Source of the DNA: a virus
Direction: 5' to 3' (one strand)
IMG/VR virus record: IMGVR_UViG_3300027668_000101
Location: 1 to 23,975 of that record
Length of the DNA stretch: 23,975 bases
Numbering within the stretch: the stretch's first letter is position 1; each line of letters starts with the position of its first letter. The notes below the pieces were generated by a model. That model ran no database searches, had not been told where the DNA came from, and saw nothing but the letters and a program-made list of their open reading frames with translations. Shown here one piece after another: positions 4,323 through 23,975 of this stretch. The position numbers and the translations under genes were made by a program.

Positions 4323-6188
4323 ATGAGCGAAGAAATAGCTGAGGAAGTGGTCGAAGAGATCCGTTCCGAGGAAGTAATTGAAGAAGTTGTAGTTGAGGAC
4401 ACTGTAGAAGAGCGGTTCGATACTACGGCTGTACAGCATCGAGCAGGCATTGCTCAGGCTGATCATATTAATGAGGGTTCACGAACTGTTGAAATTGCTA
4501 TTTCCAGTGAAGAGCCTGTATCACGTTACTTCGGTAATGAAATATTAGACCATACTGAGAAATCCATTGATTTGGAGTTCTTGGCATCAGGTCGCGCACC
4601 TTTGCTACTGGATCACGATCCTGAGAAGCAAATTGGCGTTATAGAATCTGTAAACTTGGATAGCTCGGCCCGAAGACTACGGGCGACAGTACGCTTTGGA
4701 AAAGGTGTACTTGCTAATGAAGCGTTTACTGATGTTGTAGATGGTATCAAGGCTAATATTAGCGTTGGCTACCGCATCAACGAATTAAAGATGGTTAGCA
4801 AAGGCGGTAAAGACGATGAGGCAACTTATCGCGCCGTATCTTGGCGACCTGTCGAAGCGAGTTTGGTATCGATCCCCGCCGATGTGACAGTTGGAGTCGG
4901 TCGATCTAGCGAACCTTCACCCATCCCTATTATAGAAACTTCATTTAAGGAAGACATTATGTCTGAGATTGATATTGAAGCGGTGAAGGCTGACGCCATG
5001 AAATCCGCACAACGTAACGCCGCTCAAATTGTTGAGCTAGGTGCCCGACACAACAAGAGTGACATGGCTCGTAAAGCTATCGCTGAAGGAACTACTATCG
5101 AAGAATTCCGTGGTGAATTACTAGAGAGTGTTGGTTCTACTCGCGGCTTAGAAGCTAAGGACATCGGCATGAAGAAGGAAGAAGTTAAACGCTTCTCTCT
5201 AGTTCGCGCTATCCACGCTCTTGCTAACCCAACTGATCGCCGTGCTCAAGAAGCTGCTGCATTTGAATTTGAATGTTCACGCGCTGCTGCTGAAAGCTAT
5301 GGTCGCACTGCCCAAGGCATCATGCTTCCTGCTGAAGTAATGCGTAACTGGAAGAAGCGTGACTTGAACTCTGCTGACGAAGCATCTTTGTTCGCTGACG
5401 ACTTCCGTGGAAGCGACTTCATTGACGTTCTACGTAACTCATCTTCTGTTATGCAAGCTGGTGCTCGCGTACTAGGTGGCTTGTCTGGTGACGTTAAGAT
5501 TCCTAAGAAGGCTACAGCGGCTGCTGCTGCTTGGATCGCAACTGAAGGTGGCGCTGCTACTGAAAGCGAAATGACTGTAGGTCAGGTTAGTTTAACACCT
5601 AAGACTTTAGGTGCCTTCACTGACGTAACCCGCCAGCTATTGATCCAGTCAAGCATGGACGTTGAGAACTTGATCCGTGACGATCTAGCACAAGCTTTGG
5701 CACTTGCCATCGACTTAGCTGGTTTGGAAGGTTCTGGATCTAGCGGTCAGCCAACTGGTATCTTGAATACTACTGGTGTTAACACTGTTACTGCCTTCGC
5801 TGCTGCAAACCCTACGTTTGCTGAAGTAGTCGGACTAGAAACTGCCATTGCTAACGATAACGCCCTAATGGGTAACTTAGCATACATCTTACCATCTGCA
5901 ATGAACGGTGCTCTTAAGACCACTGAGAAAGCATCTGGTACGGCTCAGTTTGTAGCTGGCGGTGGTGACATCAACGGTTATAAGTCAATCGTGTCTAACC
6001 AAGGTACTGCAGGTAACATGTACTTCGGTAACTTCAACGACTTGTTAGTTGGCCTATTCGGCGGACTTGACCTTACTGTTGATCCGTATACTCACAGCAC
6101 CTCTGGTACGATCCGTATCGTTGCGTTGCAGTCAGTAGACATAGCAGTACGTCATGCTCAAAGCTTTGCTTTCGGTAACGATGGTTAA
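4323..6188 (+). CDS. Prohead protease-major capsid protein fusion
   Basis: One 621-residue gene combines head maturation protease and shell protein. Residues 1-32 are very acidic (mostly Glu/Val). Residues about 35-195 form an HK97-type S78 serine protease: H98 in LLLDHDP, S147 in KANISVGY and E178 in RPVEASLVSIPA match the expected catalytic positions. A linker (195-212) leads to a helical delta-like segment (213-310) and an HK97-fold capsid domain (about 320-621), recognisable from AQGIMLPAEVM, SSSVMQAGARVL, AAWIATEGGAATESEM, KTLGAFTDVTRQLL and SSGQPTGIL. Start ATG 4323 has AGGAG eight bases before it. A strong internal start at 4959 (residue 213) would make capsid protein alone. Codon use changes at the junction: by hand count 8 of 14 Arg codons in the protease part are CGA, CGG or AGA, against 1 of 20 in the capsid part. 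No separate scaffold gene is seen. Confidence 0.92.
   Translation: MSEEIAEEVVEEIRSEEVIEEVVVEDTVEERFDTTAVQHRAGIAQADHINEGSRTVEIAISSEEPVSRYFGNEILDHTEKSIDLEFLASGRAPLLLDHDPEKQIGVIESVNLDSSARRLRATVRFGKGVLANEAFTDVVDGIKANISVGYRINELKMVSKGGKDDEATYRAVSWRPVEASLVSIPADVTVGVGRSSEPSPIPIIETSFKEDIMSEIDIEAVKADAMKSAQRNAAQIVELGARHNKSDMARKAIAEGTTIEEFRGELLESVGSTRGLEAKDIGMKKEEVKRFSLVRAIHALANPTDRRAQEAAAFEFECSRAAAESYGRTAQGIMLPAEVMRNWKKRDLNSADEASLFADDFRGSDFIDVLRNSSSVMQAGARVLGGLSGDVKIPKKATAAAAAWIATEGGAATESEMTVGQVSLTPKTLGAFTDVTRQLLIQSSMDVENLIRDDLAQALALAIDLAGLEGSGSSGQPTGILNTTGVNTVTAFAAANPTFAEVVGLETAIANDNALMGNLAYILPSAMNGALKTTEKASGTAQFVAGGGDINGYKSIVSNQGTAGNMYFGNFNDLLVGLFGGLDLTVDPYTHSTSGTIRIVALQSVDIAVRHAQSFAFGNDG
4947..4958 (+). 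promoter_or_regulatory. Internal ribosome binding site inside protease-capsid gene
   Basis: AAGGAAG at 4947-4953 sits five bases before an in-frame ATG at 4959. It is the best ribosome-site/ATG pair inside this gene and falls exactly at the linker between protease and capsid domains. It would support independent translation of the capsid protein. Confidence 0.65.
4959..6188 (+). CDS. Major capsid protein from internal start (nested product)
   Basis: Proposed 409-residue product read in the same frame as the fusion, starting MSEIDIEAVKAD. It would contain the delta-like helical segment and the whole HK97 capsid fold without the protease. This parallels lambda C/Nu3 in using a nested start within a protease gene, but here the shorter product is the shell protein rather than a scaffold. 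A 1:many ratio of fusion to capsid would suit assembly, since a prohead needs hundreds of shell subunits and far fewer proteases. The support is the strong ribosome site, its position at the domain boundary, and the shift to CGT/CGC, AAC and GCT codons downstream. Whether both products are made needs protein data. Confidence 0.6.
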   Translation: MSEIDIEAVKADAMKSAQRNAAQIVELGARHNKSDMARKAIAEGTTIEEFRGELLESVGSTRGLEAKDIGMKKEEVKRFSLVRAIHALANPTDRRAQEAAAFEFECSRAAAESYGRTAQGIMLPAEVMRNWKKRDLNSADEASLFADDFRGSDFIDVLRNSSSVMQAGARVLGGLSGDVKIPKKATAAAAAWIATEGGAATESEMTVGQVSLTPKTLGAFTDVTRQLLIQSSMDVENLIRDDLAQALALAIDLAGLEGSGSSGQPTGILNTTGVNTVTAFAAANPTFAEVVGLETAIANDNALMGNLAYILPSAMNGALKTTEKASGTAQFVAGGGDINGYKSIVSNQGTAGNMYFGNFNDLLVGLFGGLDLTVDPYTHSTSGTIRIVALQSVDIAVRHAQSFAFGNDG

Positions 6189-16758: not shown

Positions 16759-17030
16759 TGGATATTTTCAGCCAACAACCTTTAGACATATTGGACTATG
16801 GAGTTGATCTGACTAAATGGCTTCCTGCTGGAGATTCTGTAGTGTCTTCAGTTGCTAAATCATCTCCTTCTGGACTAAACACTGTTGTTACTAATGGAGC
16901 GACCAGTGTACCAAAAGTATGGGCTAGTGGTGGAGTTAATGACACTGAGTACAAGGTTACCTTAACGGTCATTACTAATGGTGGTCGAACCAAAGAATTT
17001 GAGTTTAAAATAGTGGTGGTAGAAATATGA
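16755..17030 (+). CDS. Fiber-tail adaptor, Gp77-like
   Basis: A 91-residue (or 90, since the start is ATGATG) protein. The pattern DILDYGVDLTKWLPAGDSVV near the N-terminus, then TNGATSVPKVWASGGVNDTE and YKVTLTVITNGGRTKEFEFK, matches the small beta-sandwich family I know as Gp77 phage fiber-tail adaptor. It would join the fiber to the tail. The start overlaps the repeat protein's stop by four bases and its own stop overlaps the fiber start (ATGA), so repeat protein, adaptor and fiber are translationally linked and probably assemble together. Confidence 0.72.
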   Translation: MMDIFSQQPLDILDYGVDLTKWLPAGDSVVSSVAKSSPSGLNTVVTNGATSVPKVWASGGVNDTEYKVTLTVITNGGRTKEFEFKIVVVEI

Positions 17031-19606
17031 GTTTCGTTAACAATGTAAAGGCTTCACTTCACGCTGCTTTGACCAATAGCGCAACTAGTGTTCTGGTTGT
17101 TAAGTCTATCAGCCCATTTAACGATCCCCCATCAAGCGGCAATATTACGCTTATGGATAGCTTAAGTAACCCAAGCAAGATCGAGGTTATTTCTTATACG
17201 GGACGGACAGATAGCGGCACTTATTGGACTTTAACTGGCGCTACTCGCGGCTTAGAATCTTCTACCGCTTCCGCTTTTTCTGTGGGTGCTTATGCTATCC
17301 AAACATGGACGGCAGGCGATGCTACAACAGCGACAGTAGATACCACATATTCTGTAGGTGATGGAGGCTTAACTACTAATGACTTCACTAATGCCGATCA
17401 CTCTAAGTTAAACGCCATAGAAGCTAGTGCTGATGTAACAGATACTGCAAATGTTGTATCATCGTTAACAGCAGGCACTAATGTAGCTATAGCAGCTGAC
17501 GGTACTATATCTTCTACAGATACTAACACTACTTATACGGTAGGTGATGGTGGGCTAACGCAAGTAAACTTCACTACTGCTGACAACACTAAGTTAGACG
17601 GTATTGATGCATCAGCTAATAACTACTCACTTCCAGCATCTGTTGTCCATGATACTGAAGCAGGGGCGTTACATGCTACAGATGCACTGTCAATATCTGG
17701 ACACACTATCACATTAAAACGTGGTGATGCGACTACGGAGACAGTTACAGTACCTGACAATAACACTGTATACACTCACCCATCTAACCATGCTATATCG
17801 GTTATAACTGGGTTGCAGGCAGCGTTAAATGCTAAGGCACCTTTGGCTAGCCCTGCGTTAACTGGTACACCTACAGCACCTACAGCAGCAGCTAATACCA
17901 GTACTACGCAGGTAGCCACAACTGCTTATGTGCAGACTGAGCTTACTGATCTTATTGGCGGTGCACCAGGTACACTAGATACACTTAACGAACTAGCAGC
18001 GGCTATTAATGATGATGCAGCTTATGCGTCTACGTTGACAACTGCACTAGGTACCAAGGTAACTAAGACTACTAACCAAGCATTAAGCACTTCTGCCAAT
18101 GCTATGACTATTAGTGGGCATACTATTACGTTAAATCGTGGTGATGGGACTACGGATACAGTAACTGTCCCTGATAACAATACTACTTACAGTGTTGGTG
18201 ACGGTGGTTTATCACAGATCAACTTCACATCAGCTGATCATAGTAAATTAAACGGTATAGCTACTTCTGCTAACAACTACTCGTTCCCTGAGACTATCAG
18301 TGAGTCGGCAAATGGCAGTACTGTGGTGAAGCGTACAGTTAATGGTTACATAAATGGCGTGTACTACGGAGGGACAGGAACATTTTCTACAAGTGGTGAC
18401 ACATCAGGTATGGGTCTCTTCACAGGTACTAATGGTTCTGACAACTATGGTCGTAGCTACACAGCTGCTGCTGCTCGTACTCTGCTTAACGTAGCTAATG
18501 GTGCTAACAACTATTCGTTACCAGCTAGTGTTATTCATCAAACAGAGTTGAGCGGTAGCGTTATTTCTTCTAGTACAACTATTGCTGCTAACGTAGCAGG
18601 AGTTAAGGCTGCTTATGACAGATCGTGGCCTAACACTACGTATTCTGTGGGTGATGGCGGTTTAACTCAACATAACTTCACATCGGCAGATCATAGTAAA
18701 TTAAATGGTATTGAGACCTCTGCAACAGCGGATCAATCAGCAGCTCAGATTAAAGCGCACCTAGTTAACGGTATTAACAGCGAGCATTACGTAGATAACT
18801 CCGTAGACGCTGCACACCTTAATGTATCTGGTAACGGTAACACTAGTCAGTGGTTACGTTCAGATGGTGATGGCTCAATGACTTGGGCTGTACCACCAAC
18901 GAACACTGGCCCAACTGGAGCTACTGGCCCACAAGGCAATACTGGTTCAACTGGCGGAACAGGATCTACTGGATCTACTGGTTCGCAAGGCCCAACAGGA
19001 TCTACTGGCTCACAAGGTGCTACTGGCCCTGCCGGTAGTGCGGCTAACGTAACTGCTTCTAACGTATTCTCTGCTATTTATAATCAGAACCACACTGATT
19101 GGTACAGAACTACTAGCGATAAGGGTTTGTACTTCGCTAGTTATGGTGGTGGCGTACAAATGCTTGATACTACTTGGGTACGTGTGTATAACAGTAAAGC
19201 TTTATATGTAGCTAATCAGATAGCGGCTACAGGTAATATCACAGCCTACTACTCAGACCAGCGTTTGAAGACTAGTACAGGTAATATTGAGAATGCTATT
19301 GATAAGGTAATGTCGCTAGACGGCTTCACCTATGTTGAGAATGACTTGGCACGTAGCCTTGGCTATAGCAATGAACGGCAGCAAGTAGGTATCTCTGCAC
19401 AGCAAATCCAAGCAGTGTTACCAGAGGCGGTGTCGTTAGCCCCTGTGGACATGGCAACGGATGAGTTTAGTGGTGAAATATCATCGAAGTCTGGTGAGAA
19501 TTACTTAACCGTAGACTACTCACGTATTGTGCCACTACTCATTGAAGCCATCAAAGAACAACAGACTCAGATTGATGTACTCAAGGCTCTTGTAGGGGGT
19601 GCGTAA
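17027..19606 (+). CDS. Tail fiber with collagen-like repeat and S74 self-cleaving chaperone
   Basis: An 859-residue fiber. Residues 1-105 form an N-terminal attachment region (NNVKASLHAALTNSATSVLV, then DPPSSGNITLMD). Four copies of a roughly 28-residue module (Y-S/T-V-G-D-G-G-L...F-T-x-A-D-x-x-K-L) start at residues 108, 170, 388 and 539; other shared segments are SGHTITLKRGD (two) and ANNYS-L/F-P (three). A linker near residues 280-305 has ASPALTGTPTAPTAAANTST. Residues 628-672 are fifteen collagen-like Gly-X-Y triplets. Residues 743-859 are a peptidase S74 intramolecular chaperone: SDQRLK, with S743 and K748 spaced five apart as in the known Ser-Lys dyad, then GISAQQIQAVLPEAV and YLTVDYSRIVPLLIEAIKEQ. 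It would trimerise the fiber and cut itself off before S743. The start overlaps the adaptor stop (ATGA). Confidence 0.88.
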   Translation: MSFVNNVKASLHAALTNSATSVLVVKSISPFNDPPSSGNITLMDSLSNPSKIEVISYTGRTDSGTYWTLTGATRGLESSTASAFSVGAYAIQTWTAGDATTATVDTTYSVGDGGLTTNDFTNADHSKLNAIEASADVTDTANVVSSLTAGTNVAIAADGTISSTDTNTTYTVGDGGLTQVNFTTADNTKLDGIDASANNYSLPASVVHDTEAGALHATDALSISGHTITLKRGDATTETVTVPDNNTVYTHPSNHAISVITGLQAALNAKAPLASPALTGTPTAPTAAANTSTTQVATTAYVQTELTDLIGGAPGTLDTLNELAAAINDDAAYASTLTTALGTKVTKTTNQALSTSANAMTISGHTITLNRGDGTTDTVTVPDNNTTYSVGDGGLSQINFTSADHSKLNGIATSANNYSFPETISESANGSTVVKRTVNGYINGVYYGGTGTFSTSGDTSGMGLFTGTNGSDNYGRSYTAAAARTLLNVANGANNYSLPASVIHQTELSGSVISSSTTIAANVAGVKAAYDRSWPNTTYSVGDGGLTQHNFTSADHSKLNGIETSATADQSAAQIKAHLVNGINSEHYVDNSVDAAHLNVSGNGNTSQWLRSDGDGSMTWAVPPTNTGPTGATGPQGNTGSTGGTGSTGSTGSQGPTGSTGSQGATGPAGSAANVTASNVFSAIYNQNHTDWYRTTSDKGLYFASYGGGVQMLDTTWVRVYNSKALYVANQIAATGNITAYYSDQRLKTSTGNIENAIDKVMSLDGFTYVENDLARSLGYSNERQQVGISAQQIQAVLPEAVSLAPVDMATDEFSGEISSKSGENYLTVDYSRIVPLLIEAIKEQQTQIDVLKALVGGA
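18908..19042 (+). repeat. Collagen-like Gly-X-Y stretch in tail fiber (15 triplets)
   Basis: Fifteen uninterrupted Gly-X-Y triplets at residues 628-672. The Y position is Thr ten times, Gln three times and Ala twice. All four prolines are at X and none is at Y. Stretches of this kind form trimeric collagen-like rods in phage fibers. Confidence 0.88.
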
Positions 19607-20094
19607 TGGCTCTACAATCCTCAGGTGCCATAAGTTTCTCACAGATAGCTGCTGAGTTTGGTGGCTCTGGTTCACATTCACTATCAGAGTATTATCCTCT
19701 GGTAGGTCAAGGTGTCTCAGGTCTACCCTCAAGTGGTCAGTTTAGCTTCTCTCAGTTCTACGGTAAGAGTAAGTACGTTGTGACATCCACTTGGACTTCG
19801 AGTGGTTACAACACAGCCTCGTGGGTTAATTCATCTACCTATTATAGTGAAGACCATGCTTATTACGCAACGTTTGGTGGCACATTTCTGAAGCTTACCA
19901 CATGGGGTATTACTACTCAGTGGGGAGTGTCTTCATATATAAGTGGTAATACACGATATTCAACTACAGGCTCAAACGTACGTTGTGGTAACAATGGATG
20001 CAGACAAAGTATTCAGCTAGCAACCCTTACGAATACTTGGACTGATACATCAAGCTACGTCAACGTCACAACTACAGCATCAATAACAGGATAA
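19606..20094 (+). CDS. Small structural protein, fiber-associated
   Basis: A 162-residue product. The first 55 residues form a module I recall in many phage structural proteins: MALQSSGAISFSQIAAEFGG, then SLSEYYPL and a second half-copy, PSSGQFSFSQFYGKS. The motif S-S-G-x-(I/F)-S-F-S-Q occurs twice, at residues 5-13 and about 41-49, and may be a packing unit. The remaining about 105 residues are rich in Thr, Ser, Tyr and Trp and likely beta-structured; two cysteines lie close together (VRCGNNGCRQ) and could be a disulfide or metal pair. No catalytic motif is visible. It overlaps the large fiber gene (TAATG), so a role as fiber tip, accessory adhesin or minor virion protein is inferred from position. 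Confidence 0.6.
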   Translation: MALQSSGAISFSQIAAEFGGSGSHSLSEYYPLVGQGVSGLPSSGQFSFSQFYGKSKYVVTSTWTSSGYNTASWVNSSTYYSEDHAYYATFGGTFLKLTTWGITTQWGVSSYISGNTRYSTTGSNVRCGNNGCRQSIQLATLTNTWTDTSSYVNVTTTASITG

Positions 20095-20098
20095 TTAT

Positions 20099-20470
20099 AT
20101 GAACACTTTAAATTACGACAATGGTACTTGCGAAGTTCGCAGAGGAGATAAATACTTTTCCTCCAATGGGCATAAACCTGAATTAACTTTTGAATACGAT
20201 ACATTATTCTATGACAATTTTAATTCTGTAGCAAAGCGCATTATTGGTAGCGAATTAACGTTATTAACTGATGTGCAATGCGCAGAGATAGAAACTTTTA
20301 TTGATGGACTTGTCGCTGACCCACAAACACAAACCAACTTAGAATCCCAGCGTTATTTATATGAGACAGATTGGTTTGTTGTCCGAAAAGCAGAGTTAGG
20401 TACTCCTATACCAACTAACATTTTAGTAGGTAGAGCTGCTGCTAGAGAAGCTATAGTGCAGCCAAATTAA
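20099..20470 (+). CDS. Probable tail fiber assembly chaperone
   Basis: A 123-residue product. The C-terminal half has ESQRYLYETDWFVVRKAELG, then TPIPTNILVGRAAAREAI, matching the 'L-x-E-T-D-W ... P-x-P ... R-x-A-x-R' layout of phage tail fiber assembly proteins (a TAC/APC-type family, from memory). Such proteins help fibers fold and attach and are not usually in the virion. The N-terminal half (residues 1-60) is unrelated and probably partner-specific. AGGA (20088-20091) lies seven bases before ATG 20099. Its position downstream of the fiber genes fits the usual fiber-chaperone order. Confidence 0.62.
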   Translation: MNTLNYDNGTCEVRRGDKYFSSNGHKPELTFEYDTLFYDNFNSVAKRIIGSELTLLTDVQCAEIETFIDGLVADPQTQTNLESQRYLYETDWFVVRKAELGTPIPTNILVGRAAAREAIVQPN

Positions 20471-21085
20471 ATGGAAAACTTTATTAGGGTGTACCCTCAA
20501 GCACTGTCAGTGGAAGAATGTGATGCTTTAGTAAATGATTGGGATAACTTCCCAAGACCTCTTGAGGATGAACCAGCGTTCTTTAGCTCAAATGATATAG
20601 CAATGCGGAACGATTCTCAGGTTCAGCTTGATGCGGTATTTCAGGCTGATACTCAAGAATCGCAAGCTCTTAAAATTAAGTATTATCAAATACTAGAGAA
20701 AGCGGTTACCAAAGGGAGAGATGATTATCTTAGTGACTTAGGTCAGTTGGAGATGACTCCTCTTGAGCTAACAGGTTTTAAAGTACAGAAATATGATGCA
20801 TCTAAGGGTGGAGGGTATTACGTATTCCATTACGAACGTCATGGCTATAGCTTGCATAAGGATTCTATCAGACGGCAATTAGTTTGGATGGTTTATCTTA
20901 ATGACGTACCTGAGGGTGAAGGTGAAACTGAATTCCTATATCAAGGGCTAAGAGTACAACCTAAGAAAGGTGATTTAGTTATATGGCCCTCAGCCTTCAC
21001 ACACACACACCGAGGTAATCCTGTGTACACAACAGACAAGTACATAGCAACTGGCTGGATGCTGTGGCATAAACAGTCTAGTTAA
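20471..21085 (+). CDS. 2OG-Fe(II) oxygenase, prolyl 4-hydroxylase-like
   Basis: A 204-residue cytoplasmic enzyme (no signal peptide) of the 2-oxoglutarate/iron dioxygenase fold. Predicted iron ligands are H120 and E122 (FHYERHG, an H-x-E form) and a distal histidine H178 or H180 in AFTHTHRGNP. K190 or R181 could hold 2-oxoglutarate; the KYIATGWML ending is typical of phage members. The core strands read RRQLVWMVYLNDVPEGEGET and FLYQGLRVQPKKGDLVIWPS. The usual motif is H-x-D/E...H, so the acidic ligand is acceptable. The gene starts directly at the previous stop. Its placement next to a collagen-like fiber suggests that it may hydroxylate a virion protein; host EF-Tu or other targets are alternatives. 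Family confidence is high, substrate unknown. Confidence 0.85.
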   Translation: MENFIRVYPQALSVEECDALVNDWDNFPRPLEDEPAFFSSNDIAMRNDSQVQLDAVFQADTQESQALKIKYYQILEKAVTKGRDDYLSDLGQLEMTPLELTGFKVQKYDASKGGGYYVFHYERHGYSLHKDSIRRQLVWMVYLNDVPEGEGETEFLYQGLRVQPKKGDLVIWPSAFTHTHRGNPVYTTDKYIATGWMLWHKQSS

Positions 21086-21100
21086 TCAACAAGGGGAATT

Positions 21101-21646
21101 ATGAATAGATTGCTTAAAGAGGTAGCCCTATGCACCTTGTTAATTACATCCGCAGGGATAGCCTCTGCCGAACCTATCGTGACTGACTCTACGACTAAAA
21201 GTACAGTTCACACGACAGGCTCGGTCACTACAACGCTAAAGTCGCCACCGCCATCTGCTATATCACCGTCCCTTGGTGGTAGTAACTCTGATTCATGTAC
21301 GATTGGAGTGGCAGGGGCCGTACAGACGCAGATACTGGGTATTTCAGCAGGCACTACAACCCGCGACCTGAACTGTGAGCGATTGAAGAATGCTAAGACA
21401 CTCTATGATATGGGTATGAAGGTAGCCGCAGTATCAGTACTATGCCAGGACTTACGGGTATTTGATGCCATGATAATGGCTGGAACACCTTGTCCATACA
21501 ACGGCATTATTGGTGCTGATGCCAAAATAGCTTGGGAGAATGATGAGGAGGAAATACCTAAAGAGGAAGTCATTACCAAGTACGACACGAAAGAGTTTTT
21601 ACTTAGTTTAGGTGGCGCAATCTTAGGTTTGCTTCTACTACTATGA
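21101..21646 (+). CDS. Exported, membrane-anchored protein of unknown function
   Basis: A 181-residue protein, first gene of the envelope module. A signal peptide (residues 1-23, n-region MNRLLKE, cleavage after ASA) is followed by a Thr/Ser-rich stretch and a conserved-looking core (SCTIGVAGAVQTQILGISAG, NCERLKNAKTLYDMGMKVAA, then LCQDLRVFDAMIMAGTPCP). Four cysteines remain after cleavage, enough for two disulfides. Residues about 165-181 are hydrophobic to the end (FLLSLGGAILGLLLLL), so the mature protein is probably held in a membrane by its C-terminus with the core in the periplasm. C11 does not form a lipobox. AAGGGGAA precedes ATG 21101. The core reminds me of unannotated marine phage proteins, which I cannot verify. 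Function unknown. Confidence 0.75.
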   Translation: MNRLLKEVALCTLLITSAGIASAEPIVTDSTTKSTVHTTGSVTTTLKSPPPSAISPSLGGSNSDSCTIGVAGAVQTQILGISAGTTTRDLNCERLKNAKTLYDMGMKVAAVSVLCQDLRVFDAMIMAGTPCPYNGIIGADAKIAWENDEEEIPKEEVITKYDTKEFLLSLGGAILGLLLLL

Positions 21647-22506
21647 TTAGGCTAGTTGTTGCCTTGCTAGCGATCTACGCGACAAGCGCCCACAGCGAGT
21701 ATCTATACGGCCTGACAGGGAATATGGCAGGCACCGGACATACTTGGGGCATGAATATCGGGCCTAGTGGATCGCAAAGCCTAAAGATTAACGGGGTGTT
21801 TTATCAATACACGCCTGTGAAAAACATTGAAGATGACATGCTAGTTCATGTACGTAACAAGCGAGTAGGCGGTGGTTATATTTTCTCAAGTACAGATGAT
21901 TGGAGTGGGCTGCAAGGCGGAATACCCATCACCAAAGGGTTTGTTATAGATAACCTGCCTATAGAATTGTGGGGCGATGGATCGATTGATATTGAGGGTA
22001 CAGGATCGGTTGTTGATGCCAATGTAATTTACAGCTACAAGTATAACAACGACTGCCTAACGCCTATGTCAGACCCCTCTTGCTCTGGTTATATTGATGC
22101 TGTGCTGTCAATGATGGGCGAAAGTAAGATCGAGGCTTACGACCCATTGGTCGATGAAAATATCAACGATGTAATAGATGAGAAAGCCGAGTTAGATGAG
22201 GATGTTCAGCAAGAAGATGAAGAGAAAGCTGAGGCTAAAGACAGGTTGCAGCGCATGTTAAGCGGAGTCAATGACTCAATTCTTTATGCAAATGTAACCT
22301 CTCAAAATATTTTGATGTTTGCAATGTCTCGTAACAATAATCTAAACCCTTATTACGATAAGAAGTTATCTGGCGGAACCTACAAAGAGACAGTTGTTCT
22401 TGATGGCGGTCAACTACCTGACAACAAAAAAGGCGCTAGAGCAGGACTGGCACAGCAAATATTACACACCAAAATGGTGAGTATGCAGTATGACCCAAAG
22501 GAATAA
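21643..22506 (+). CDS. Exported protein with acidic coiled segment, unknown function
   Basis: A 287-residue protein that overlaps the previous gene by four bases (ATGA). Signal peptide residues 1-18, cleavage probably after AHS. The first about 130 mature residues look beta-rich (GLTGNMAGTGHTWGMNIGPS, then SLKINGVFYQY and IELWGDGSIDIEGTGSVVDA). Two cysteines lie nine residues apart (NDCLTPMSDPSCSG), a likely disulfide loop. Residues about 160-205 are strongly acidic and helical (DENINDVIDEKAELDEDVQQ and EDEEKAEAKDRLQRML), probably a coiled coil. The C-terminus (about 240-287) has a Gly/Lys-rich linker and QILHTKMVSM. No transmembrane segment is seen besides the signal. It may form a complex with its neighbours in the periplasm. 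No family recognised. Confidence 0.7.
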   Translation: MIRLVVALLAIYATSAHSEYLYGLTGNMAGTGHTWGMNIGPSGSQSLKINGVFYQYTPVKNIEDDMLVHVRNKRVGGGYIFSSTDDWSGLQGGIPITKGFVIDNLPIELWGDGSIDIEGTGSVVDANVIYSYKYNNDCLTPMSDPSCSGYIDAVLSMMGESKIEAYDPLVDENINDVIDEKAELDEDVQQEDEEKAEAKDRLQRMLSGVNDSILYANVTSQNILMFAMSRNNNLNPYYDKKLSGGTYKETVVLDGGQLPDNKKGARAGLAQQILHTKMVSMQYDPKE

Positions 22507-22509
22507 CCC

Positions 22510-23007
22510 ATGAAGAAGTTACTAGTAGTAGGCTTAGTGCTTGCAGTACATATACCAGCATTTGCAACGGATACCCCTATTGTAGGTAATGTCCAGACTC
22601 GCTGTCTCATTACAACCGATACCAATGGTGTATTTGGTAACCCCCTACCTAGTAAGCTAAGTACAGCCTCTGCTGACGGTGGAGTTGTTCCTGTCGTACG
22701 CTACGATGTAACTCTGGCAGATGCTTATTTAGCAAAGGTGACAACCCCTACTGCGTTTAGCGCAAGCCCATCTTTATCAGATTCGGTAACTTGGACAGGA
22801 TCAACCGCAGTCACTAAGACAAGTGATGCGGCTATGTCTGGCTATGAGGCAGCAAAGGTTACTTACGGCTCAACGACTCAGTTTGACTTAACAAAGGCTG
22901 GATCAACATGGTTCTCGTCTACCGCTACGGCAGTGTATGGCGTCAGTAAGTCATTCCCTGGAGGCAGTTATACAGCTATCGTATTAGCTGAATGCATTGC
23001 TAAGTAG
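22510..23007 (+). CDS. Exported small beta-rich protein, unknown function
   Basis: A 165-residue protein. Signal peptide residues 1-19 (MKKLLVVGLVLAVHIPAFA), cleavage after AFA. The mature part is rich in Thr, Ser, Val and Ala with few charged residues, suggesting a beta-sandwich or adhesin-like fold: IVGNVQTRCLITTDTNGVFG near the start, VVRYDVTLADAYLAKVTTP in the middle, and a C-terminal GGSYTAIVLAECIAK. Its two cysteines lie near opposite ends and could close the domain with a disulfide, as in pilin-like or spore-coat-U-like folds (an analogy only). AAAGGAA precedes ATG 22510 by about nine bases. It overlaps the next gene by 11 bases. Confidence 0.7.
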   Translation: MKKLLVVGLVLAVHIPAFATDTPIVGNVQTRCLITTDTNGVFGNPLPSKLSTASADGGVVPVVRYDVTLADAYLAKVTTPTAFSASPSLSDSVTWTGSTAVTKTSDAAMSGYEAAKVTYGSTTQFDLTKAGSTWFSSTATAVYGVSKSFPGGSYTAIVLAECIAK

Positions 23008-23368
23008 TATTAGGCTAACGCTGCTACTGACACTACTTCCTTTTGGTAGTGCTGTAGCGCATGAAATGCTACCAACATACCCCACGTTTACTCAGTCATT
23101 CATGGCAGGCATCTCTGTCACTACACTGAGCATCTTCAATAAAAGAAAAGATGTCTCTTACTATGAGATAGGGGTGTTTACAGATGAATGGGAGCCTATC
23201 CCATTTGTATCCCAATACACGGTGATACCTATGAAGTACTTAGACACAGTATCCTTTGATATTTATGTAAGCCATTTGTCACTAGACTCTGTTGAGTACA
23301 TCTGCTCTGTATCTCAGCTAGACCTCGGTGCTACGGTGTCATCTAAGATTTGTTCGAGAGTTAAGTAA
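22997..23368 (+). CDS. Exported small Ig-like protein, unknown function
   Basis: A 123-residue protein if translation starts at TTG 22997; no ATG or GTG lies upstream of the signal peptide in this frame, and the first ATG would remove it. Signal peptide residues 1-21 (SSIRLTLLLTLLPFGSAVA), cleavage after AVA. The mature roughly 102 residues look like one immunoglobulin-type beta-sandwich: TFTQSFMAGISVTTLSIFNK, VSYYEIGVFTDEWEPIPFVS, YTVIPMKYLDTVSFDIYVSH. The last part has two cysteines (EYICSVSQLDLGATVSSKIC). The fold suggests a periplasmic chaperone-like or binding domain, from style only. The previous gene's stop falls inside its first codons, so translation is likely coupled. An ATT at 23009 is a less likely start. 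Confidence 0.6.
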   Translation: MLSSIRLTLLLTLLPFGSAVAHEMLPTYPTFTQSFMAGISVTTLSIFNKRKDVSYYEIGVFTDEWEPIPFVSQYTVIPMKYLDTVSFDIYVSHLSLDSVEYICSVSQLDLGATVSSKICSRVK

Positions 23369-23787
23369 TGGGTAAGCTCGTACTTGCAGTATATGTAGTT
23401 TTTCTGGGACTACTGATGCTAAGTACCACTGTACTTGCGAATAACTCGCTTTCTCTGCAACTACCCGGCAGTAGTGGTAGCTACCAGTCAGACAAGTTTA
23501 AGACAGGTGACCTGGATTGCTCTAATGCCATAGGTGGTACGATCAACCTAGAGTTCGGAGTTACAGGTATCATTAATAATGCTACCAGTCTATGGAGCTC
23601 TGCCGGCAACACTCCTAAGTCTAAAGATATTGGTGTATTCGCTAGAATCATTATGCCTTTGAATGCACCTGAAGAACGGATCAACTGTAATACATTATAT
23701 TTACTAGAATTAAATAAGAAGCGTCTTGAGATAATGAAGTTAGAGACTGAATTAAATGCTCTTAGACGACTGCAGTTAGGGGAATAG
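23368..23787 (+). CDS. Exported protein with C-terminal helix, unknown function
   Basis: A 139-residue protein; start overlaps the previous stop (TAATG). Signal peptide residues 1-24 (MGKLVLAVYVVFLGLLMLST, then TVLA), cleavage after VLA. The mature N-terminus is Ser/Gly-rich (SLQLPGSSGSYQSDKFKTGD), followed by LDCSNAIGGTINLEFGVTGI and VFARIIMPLNAPEERINCNT, with one cysteine in each part forming a likely disulfide. Residues about 108-137 are a charged amphipathic helix (YLLELNKKRLEIMKLETELN, then ALRRLQ) suited to a coiled coil, which may bind the following membrane protein or another partner. I recall similar unannotated proteins from marine phages but cannot verify it. Function unknown. Confidence 0.7.
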   Translation: MGKLVLAVYVVFLGLLMLSTTVLANNSLSLQLPGSSGSYQSDKFKTGDLDCSNAIGGTINLEFGVTGIINNATSLWSSAGNTPKSKDIGVFARIIMPLNAPEERINCNTLYLLELNKKRLEIMKLETELNALRRLQLGE

Positions 23788-23788
23788 A

Positions 23789-23975
23789 ATGGCAGAGATA
23801 GAGTACGGTGGGGTTAAGTTAGGTGGTAGTAAGCTACTTTTAATAGTACCACTTATTGGTACCATCGTAGGCGGCCTATGGGGCGGTTTTGAGGTGTATC
23901 AGCGGTACCTTGATATGGAAGCTAGGATCAGCGGCTTCGTCTCCCCAGACCTCTCAGAGTACGATAAGCGCATAG
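23789..23975 (+). CDS. Membrane-anchored protein, partial at window edge
   Basis: The first 62 codons of a gene that runs off the right edge. The N-terminus is MAEIEYGGVKLGGSKLLLIV, then PLIGTIVGGLWGGFEVYQRY, giving one hydrophobic Gly-rich transmembrane segment at about residues 15-32 with no signal-peptide cleavage site. It is followed by a charged helix (LDMEARISGFVSPDLSEYDK). AGGGGAA precedes ATG 23789, one base after the previous stop. It looks like a single-pass membrane protein with a coiled C-terminal part. A holin-like or anchoring role for the exported proteins is possible; the truncated sequence does not decide. Confidence 0.65.
   Translation, partial: MAEIEYGGVKLGGSKLLLIVPLIGTIVGGLWGGFEVYQRYLDMEARISGFVSPDLSEYDKRI

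Follow-up and report, generated by a model that had tools for sequence, protein, structure and literature searches.

The window analysed here, a linear virus record of 23,975 bases (IMG/VR record IMGVR_UViG_3300027668_000101), ends in a cassette of six genes, designated g1 to g6, that occupies positions 21101 to 23975 on the plus strand. As judged by the open reading frames (ORFs) and by alignments with relatives, the first five encode exported proteins, namely g1 (21101–21646, 181 amino acids), g2 (21643–22506, 287 amino acids), g3 (22510–23007, 165 amino acids), g4 (22997–23368, with a TTG start codon and a 123-amino acid precursor) and g5 (23368–23787, 139 amino acids). The last ORF, g6 (23789–23975), is still open where the window truncates it, and encodes an N-terminal membrane segment followed by a coiled coil. 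Neighbouring genes overlap or lie within 3 nucleotides of each other, the exception being g3 and g4, which overlap by 11 nucleotides.

An earlier reading of the sequence alone (the sequence-only reading) had described five closely packed genes for exported proteins followed by a gene for a membrane protein, and both the ORFs and the export signals bear this out. A simple signal-peptide test, which requires n-region charge, a hydrophobic core and a small-x-small cleavage site, was passed by g2 to g5 of the window but by none of its 23 other genes. The window copy of g1 fails solely because of a Glu near the core, and 112 of 132 members of the g1 family pass. By family, the pass rates are 85% for g1, 84% for g2, 95% for g3, 97% for g4 and 99% for g5, against a background of 4.5% among 1363 neighbouring genes.

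In the alignments, the signal peptide of g1 is followed by a core with four invariant Cys residues (Cys66, Cys92, Cys115 and Cys131; pattern CTIG..QTQILGIS...NCERLK...MKVAAVS.LCQD...AGTPCP) and a C-terminal hydrophobic tail. The g2 protein consists of a conserved N-terminal domain, an acidic coiled-coil linker and a C-terminal domain of ~100 amino acids, while g5, read from its sequence, has two amphipathic strand-like segments, then a Cys and a long C-terminal helix. Full-length g6 (187 amino acids in relative locus L003, with the C-terminus NPLAN) has a single N-terminal hydrophobic segment and a long coiled coil; its C-terminal motif NPL is invariant in 12 of 12 aligned members. A kinship between g1 and g5, suspected from a common strand-strand-Cys-helix pattern, was unsupported outside the signal peptide.

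The gene set is conserved as a unit. Of the relative loci, 96 were eligible, having at least 3.6 kb of sequence from the start of g1 onward; in 80 of these, the full six-gene set is present in the same order. The co-occurrence that the sequence-only reading had proposed to look for in viral metagenomes was thus found. The other 16 loci have g1 in all cases, g6 in nearly all and a long g2 in several. The g3-g4 and g4-g5 spacings are ≤20 nucleotides in 97% of loci. Substitution rates in g1 to g5 are ~0.16 at the first, 0.09 at the second and 0.47 at the third codon position in pairs whose proteins are 70–97% identical, indicating real, constrained genes under purifying selection. In IMG/VR, 45 relatives were found for g2 and more than 590, a lower bound, for g1, and g1 homologues are present in Pelagibacter and Roseobacter phages. 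A tblastn search of 50,697 phage records with g2 to g5 found nothing.

The remainder of the window reads as a siphovirus late region, with terminase, portal, capsid and tail genes, then fibres and a 2-oxoglutarate (2OG)-Fe(II) oxygenase gene leading into g1 to g6. Its nearest cultured relatives by terminase are Roseobacter siphophages, of which CRP-811 and CRP-823 are collinear with the window from the small terminase up to where the fibre region begins (57–60% identity in TerL, the large terminase subunit). After the fibre region, these two phages proceed directly to lysin, holin or amidase genes, and g1 to g5 are absent from both (E above 0.6 with hidden Markov models). A weak match of the g6 profile in CRP-823 (E 3e-4) proved to belong to an unrelated coiled-coil protein whose membrane segment is C-terminal. 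Conversely, the module proteins of L003 (20 kb) and L004 (12.6 kb) are 76–95% identical to those of the window, with 77–95% for L003 alone, and no other window gene was found in either stretch at the threshold used. When L016 (1150–4219) was aligned with window positions 20901–23975, identity was 66–87% before ~22400 and 93–100% from there to the end, and on this alignment the jump is a recombination join inside g2. The backbones of module loci also vary: the virion structural protein of L027 and L110 is a different one (phrog_3287), and L039 and L059 have phrog_12 portals. As judged by these comparisons, the cassette is self-contained, optional and horizontally exchanged between unrelated phages. 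Its mobility and its absence from the collinear CRP-811 and CRP-823 argue against an obligatory virion part or lysis gene, and its exchange between backbones, together with the export signals, is a further argument against the former.

For g1 to g6, there was no trusted-level match in Pfam or NCBIfam, and sequence profiles of g1 to g5 gave only chance matches in the PDB. Pfam scans across the whole g2, g3 and g4 families likewise returned isolated chance matches only. The only known-family matches of the cassette products were thus to uncharacterised PHROGs families, phrog_20531 for g1 and phrog_37374 (7e-5) for g5. A PapD-like g4 and a pilin-like g3 had been suspected from the sequence pattern ahead of modelling, and AlphaFold2 models of each as a monomer, with predicted local distance difference test (pLDDT) scores of 91 for g3 and 92 for g4, were compared with the PDB using Foldseek. 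The 11 best PDB matches of g4 are all PapD-family pilus chaperones, with Caf1M first (E 1.8e-4) and FimC, SfaE and DraB also among them. The alignments span ~110–125 columns of chaperones of 189–206 residues, corresponding to about one domain. Two Cys residues of g4 (Cys103 and Cys119), invariant in the alignment, are located on the last two strands, like the F1-G1 disulfide known in Caf1M-type chaperones. Hence, g4 is predicted to be a single PapD-like chaperone domain of the immunoglobulin (Ig) type, newly recognised here, though it resembles a PapD N-terminal Ig domain at the level of fold only, and PF00345 was not among the Pfam matches of 51 g4 members. Mature g4 is predicted to begin at residue 22, a His (in AHEMTPTYP) that is invariant in 51 aligned sequences; no second invariant His was found in these, and thus no evidence of a copper site.

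For g3, the top Foldseek matches of this beta protein are the PapG pilin domain (E 4.5e-3), FimF, CfaB and FimG, the pilin matches ranging from E 4.5e-3 to 1e-2, and it also matches a cannulae fibre subunit with template-modelling (TM) scores of 0.52/0.56. Its mature N-terminus follows the pattern PIxGx[VI]x[SA][KR]C, in which Gly26 and Cys32 are invariant in 41 aligned sequences, and resembles the mature N-termini of K-12 FimF (ADSTITIRGYVRDNGC) and FimG (ADVTITVNGKVVAKPC). In the monomer model, this segment lacks regular secondary structure. A pilin-like subunit, also new here, is predicted on these grounds, less strongly than the chaperone domain of g4. While g3 is weak evidence alone, adjacent genes that independently indicate both partners of one system make the stronger argument.

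Upstream of the cassette, and outside the conserved unit, the 2OG-Fe(II) oxygenase gene (20471–21085, plus strand; PF13640 7e-13, phrog_61 5e-42) is preceded by a tail fibre gene with collagen-like repeats and then fibre-assembly-like genes (17027–20470, plus strand). The fibre itself (17027–19606) combines these repeats with a C-terminal segment resembling an intramolecular, S74-like chaperone. Related oxygenases (37–42%) lie upstream of the module in several relatives, and a fibre-assembly-like gene family lies upstream in 35 loci. Two small genes recur near g6 in many loci, one encoding a membrane protein with an EF-hand-like N-terminus and the other a basic protein with the C-terminus SAAYWSNKxKW. 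At 4323–6188 of the window, prohead-protease-like and capsid-like parts are seemingly fused in a 621-amino acid gene, which matches the annotated capsid gene of CRP-811.

The cassette probably belongs to phages of Gram-negative aquatic bacteria. A scan of bacterial genomes returned mostly contigs of metagenome-assembled genomes (MAGs) that resemble misbinned phage, plus one alphaproteobacterial single-cell contig (L146), and the only other host hint is the resemblance of the window terminase to that of Roseobacter phages. A 335 kb contig filed under Candidatus Neomarinimicrobiota (L145, PBPT01000016.1) resembles a misfiled jumbo-phage contig and encodes g1, g6 and a long g2. The MAG Rhodobacteraceae bacterium Water_Bin34 has four contigs (L138–L140 and L142) that each carry the module or its start, and it probably contains several phages.

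Shorter modules, likewise uncharacterised, share with the six-gene cassette a homologous g1 throughout, followed by g6 or a g6-like membrane coiled coil; they differ from it in lacking g3, g4 and g5 and in having either a different middle protein or a longer one with another N-terminal domain. In the pelagiphages HTVC115P, HTVC202P, HTVC023P, HTVC033P and Mosig, a long exported protein and then a membrane coiled-coil protein are encoded after g1. For S28-C10 and Baldr, g1 and its long neighbour can be clearly recognised, and the third gene is assigned by position only; the roseophages CRP-207 and CRP-810 have a different middle gene between g1 and g6. The C-terminal domain of g2 is common to the longer g2 proteins of some of these modules: in uncultured three-gene loci, homology between the long protein and g2 covers the last ~50–120 residues of the former, with E values as low as 1e-17 (L126), whereas its N-terminal part differs. 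Two of eight aligned long forms are weakly CBM_4_9-like, and the long protein is annotated as carbohydrate binding in S28-C10 and HTVC033P. Variable islands of marine phages often contain carbohydrate-binding genes, and 'carbohydrate binding domain' proteins of such phages were assigned to host recognition in a 2014 study (PMC3909814). However, several of the long g2 proteins of L047, L048 and L052–L056 (pelagiphages and S28-C10) start with signal-peptide-like segments, which suggests that the site of action of g2-type carbohydrate-binding proteins may be the envelope of infected cells and not the virion.

The preferred reading, to which a probability of roughly 0.4 is given, is that the cassette directs an usher-less, chaperone-assisted assembly in the envelope or at the surface that alters the surface of the infected cell. 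It builds on the observed export signals, gene order, conservation and mobility, and on the predicted folds of g3 and g4, to which the FimF- and FimG-like mature N-terminus of g3 and the weak CBM_4_9 likeness of some long g2 forms are added. The five proteins g1 to g5 would be exported via Sec, probably late in infection as suggested by gene position. The working principle would be that of an usher-less cousin of chaperone-assisted pilus assembly, in which the one-domain PapD-like g4 would hold the pilin-like g3 in the periplasm, and g3 would be passed on to join further subunits through its conserved N-terminal segment. With its four conserved Cys residues and hydrophobic tail, g1 could provide, together with the two amphipathic strands and helix of g5, a platform, an envelope anchor or an exit. 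The g2 protein may be displayed, or may bind a component of the envelope or cell wall. Tethered in the inner membrane, g6 would reach into the periplasm with its coiled coil and tie the assembly there. The changed cell surface would most probably serve to exclude competing phages, with adhesion as the second and an aid to lysis as the third candidate purpose. In this respect, the position of the module just after tail-fibre and fibre-assembly genes recalls the lambdoid phages, in which exported exclusion genes lie next to tail genes. A more specific version, in which the mobile cassette would build a donor-strand fibre or collar in this way, a surface organelle used for phage competition across unrelated backbones, is doubtful.

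Several results weigh against this reading. The mature g4 chain, of ~100 amino acids, is a single domain, and domain 2 of the chaperones is missing. The g4 model also matches generic Ig proteins, a BFVD search with it gave generic Ig-like matches only, and Ig folds are common. All g3 matches have E >1e-3, the TM score being ~0.4 for pilins, and hhalign comparisons of g3 with FimA, FimI, FimF and FimG and of g4 with FimC detected no homology, so that the likeness is one of fold, perhaps of working principle, and not of membership. In 25 module-bearing contigs (29–174 kb, mostly fragments), no outer-membrane usher (PF00577) was found above the cut-off, with a positive E. coli control; a weak usher match in one contig was below the cut-off and contained internal stops. 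Finally, at least 16 of the 42 loci with room downstream have a recognised holin or endolysin cluster close to the module, which also suits a role in lysis.

The alternative that survives best, though improbable, is indeed an accessory function in lysis, in which the exported proteins and g6 would span the envelope as a complex that disrupts or gates the outer membrane, replacing spanins or acting beside them, or times lysis. Besides the clusters just mentioned, unrelated phages have g1 close to genes for a holin or lysozyme, the topology of g6 matches that of an inner-membrane spanin subunit, and no match was found to phrog_739 in 17 and to phrog_812 in 19 of the 25 contigs. However, overlapping or adjacent spanin pairs (phrog_739 with phrog_812) occur elsewhere in L038, L117, L123 and L127 and in the contigs of L045, L070, L091 and L115, and spanin replacement, the reading initially favoured, was demoted after these were found. 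The window genes g1 to g6 have no lipobox and no match to a peptidoglycan-hydrolase domain or holin family in Pfam, PHROGs or NCBIfam, in agreement with the sequence-only reading, which had noted the lack of endolysin, spanin lipobox and canonical holin patterns; the window g6 fragment also had no spanin-family match in PHROGs. The collinear CRP-811 and CRP-823 have endolysin and/or holin genes without the module, in the single-cell contig L146 the module is ~6 kb from holin-like and lysozyme-like genes, and pilin and chaperone folds are not known to take part in lysis. The joint action in the envelope proposed from the sequence alone is thus upheld as far as a conserved, co-inherited set of exported proteins goes, but 'remodelling before lysis', one of the functions then suggested, is weakened because at least eight module contigs have separate spanin pairs and the collinear cultured phages have holin/endolysin genes without the module. 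Similarly, a multi-subunit assembly fits the folds predicted for g3 and g4. No homologue of the cassette genes is a known virion or lysis protein and the gene set is conserved, so that neither of the two outcomes named in the sequence-only reading as contrary to it was observed.

Next in order, and also unlikely, the assembly might act as a surface adhesin that makes infected cells clump together or attach to surfaces, bringing progeny into contact with new hosts. The pilin-like fold of g3 and the CBM-like (carbohydrate-binding module) long g2 would suit such a role, and the same proposal, adhesion for spread, was made for phage-borne curli genes (PMC9599517); on the other hand, CsgG (PF03783) was found in none of the 25 contigs, with positive controls, and no adhesin domain was recognised in the window form. 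A set of independent periplasmic effectors, each inhibiting a host envelope function or the DNA entry of an incoming phage with no common assembly, is quite unlikely: the proteins do differ in sequence and fold, and shorter forms do without g3 to g5, but the fixed order, tight overlaps and presence or absence as a block suggest a joint product. Least probable is that the proteins, once exported or released, become decorations of the virion, such as accessory receptor-binding proteins, since, for all that the module adjoins tail-fibre and fibre-assembly genes and that some long g2 proteins are CBM-like or carry the annotation tied to host recognition, in keeping with the carbohydrate-binding genes of the variable islands, Sec-like signals on g1 to g5 and most long g2 proteins are unexpected for virion proteins assembled in the cytoplasm, and the module is swapped between unrelated backbones and missing from the collinear siphophages.

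The cassette or its g1 is present in at least hundreds of viral contigs, is mobile and is under strong purifying selection, and no description of the cassette was found in the literature searched, of which coverage was partial. If the chaperone-assisted assembly favoured here takes place on infected cells, bacteria that abound in aquatic habitats would display a surface structure made by a phage during infection, with consequences for superinfection, aggregation and receptor ecology. The role in host recognition by the virion of some 'carbohydrate-binding proteins' of marine phages would also be called into question, as those of the g2 type have export signals. The shorter forms in cultured pelagiphages and roseophages make the system testable now.

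Compared with chaperone-usher pili (FimC/PapD/Caf1M with FimA/PapA-type subunits), the cassette shares a tandem of Sec-exported pilin-like g3 and PapD-like g4 proteins, whose predicted folds match these families, and, in g3, an N-terminal extension that is conserved and has an invariant Gly ahead of a Cys. It differs in that no usher was found, the chaperone has one domain, sequence homology is not detectable, and g3 and g4 sit in a phage cassette with four unrelated genes. With the two-component spanins (Rz/Rz1), it has in common only the inner-membrane-subunit topology of g6, whereas the window has no lipoprotein partner and genuine pairs coexist with the module in eight contigs. Lom of lambda and Cor of phi80 are exported morons beside tail genes that alter the host envelope. 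These are likewise optional signal-peptide genes adjacent to tail genes, but they are single genes, mostly of temperate phages, and not a six-gene cassette. Curli (type VIII secretion system) modules are carried by pelagiphages and the methylophage Melnitz, with proposed roles in surface fibres, exclusion or lysis (PMC9599517, PMC9004378). Like the cassette, they are exported multi-gene envelope modules carried and exchanged by marine phages; unlike them, it has no CsgG in the 25 contigs scanned and no curli homology detected in g1 to g6. Mobile exported envelope modules of phages, whether morons or phage curli, are already known, and the building of a fibre by the g1 to g6 cassette, if true, would be categorically new.

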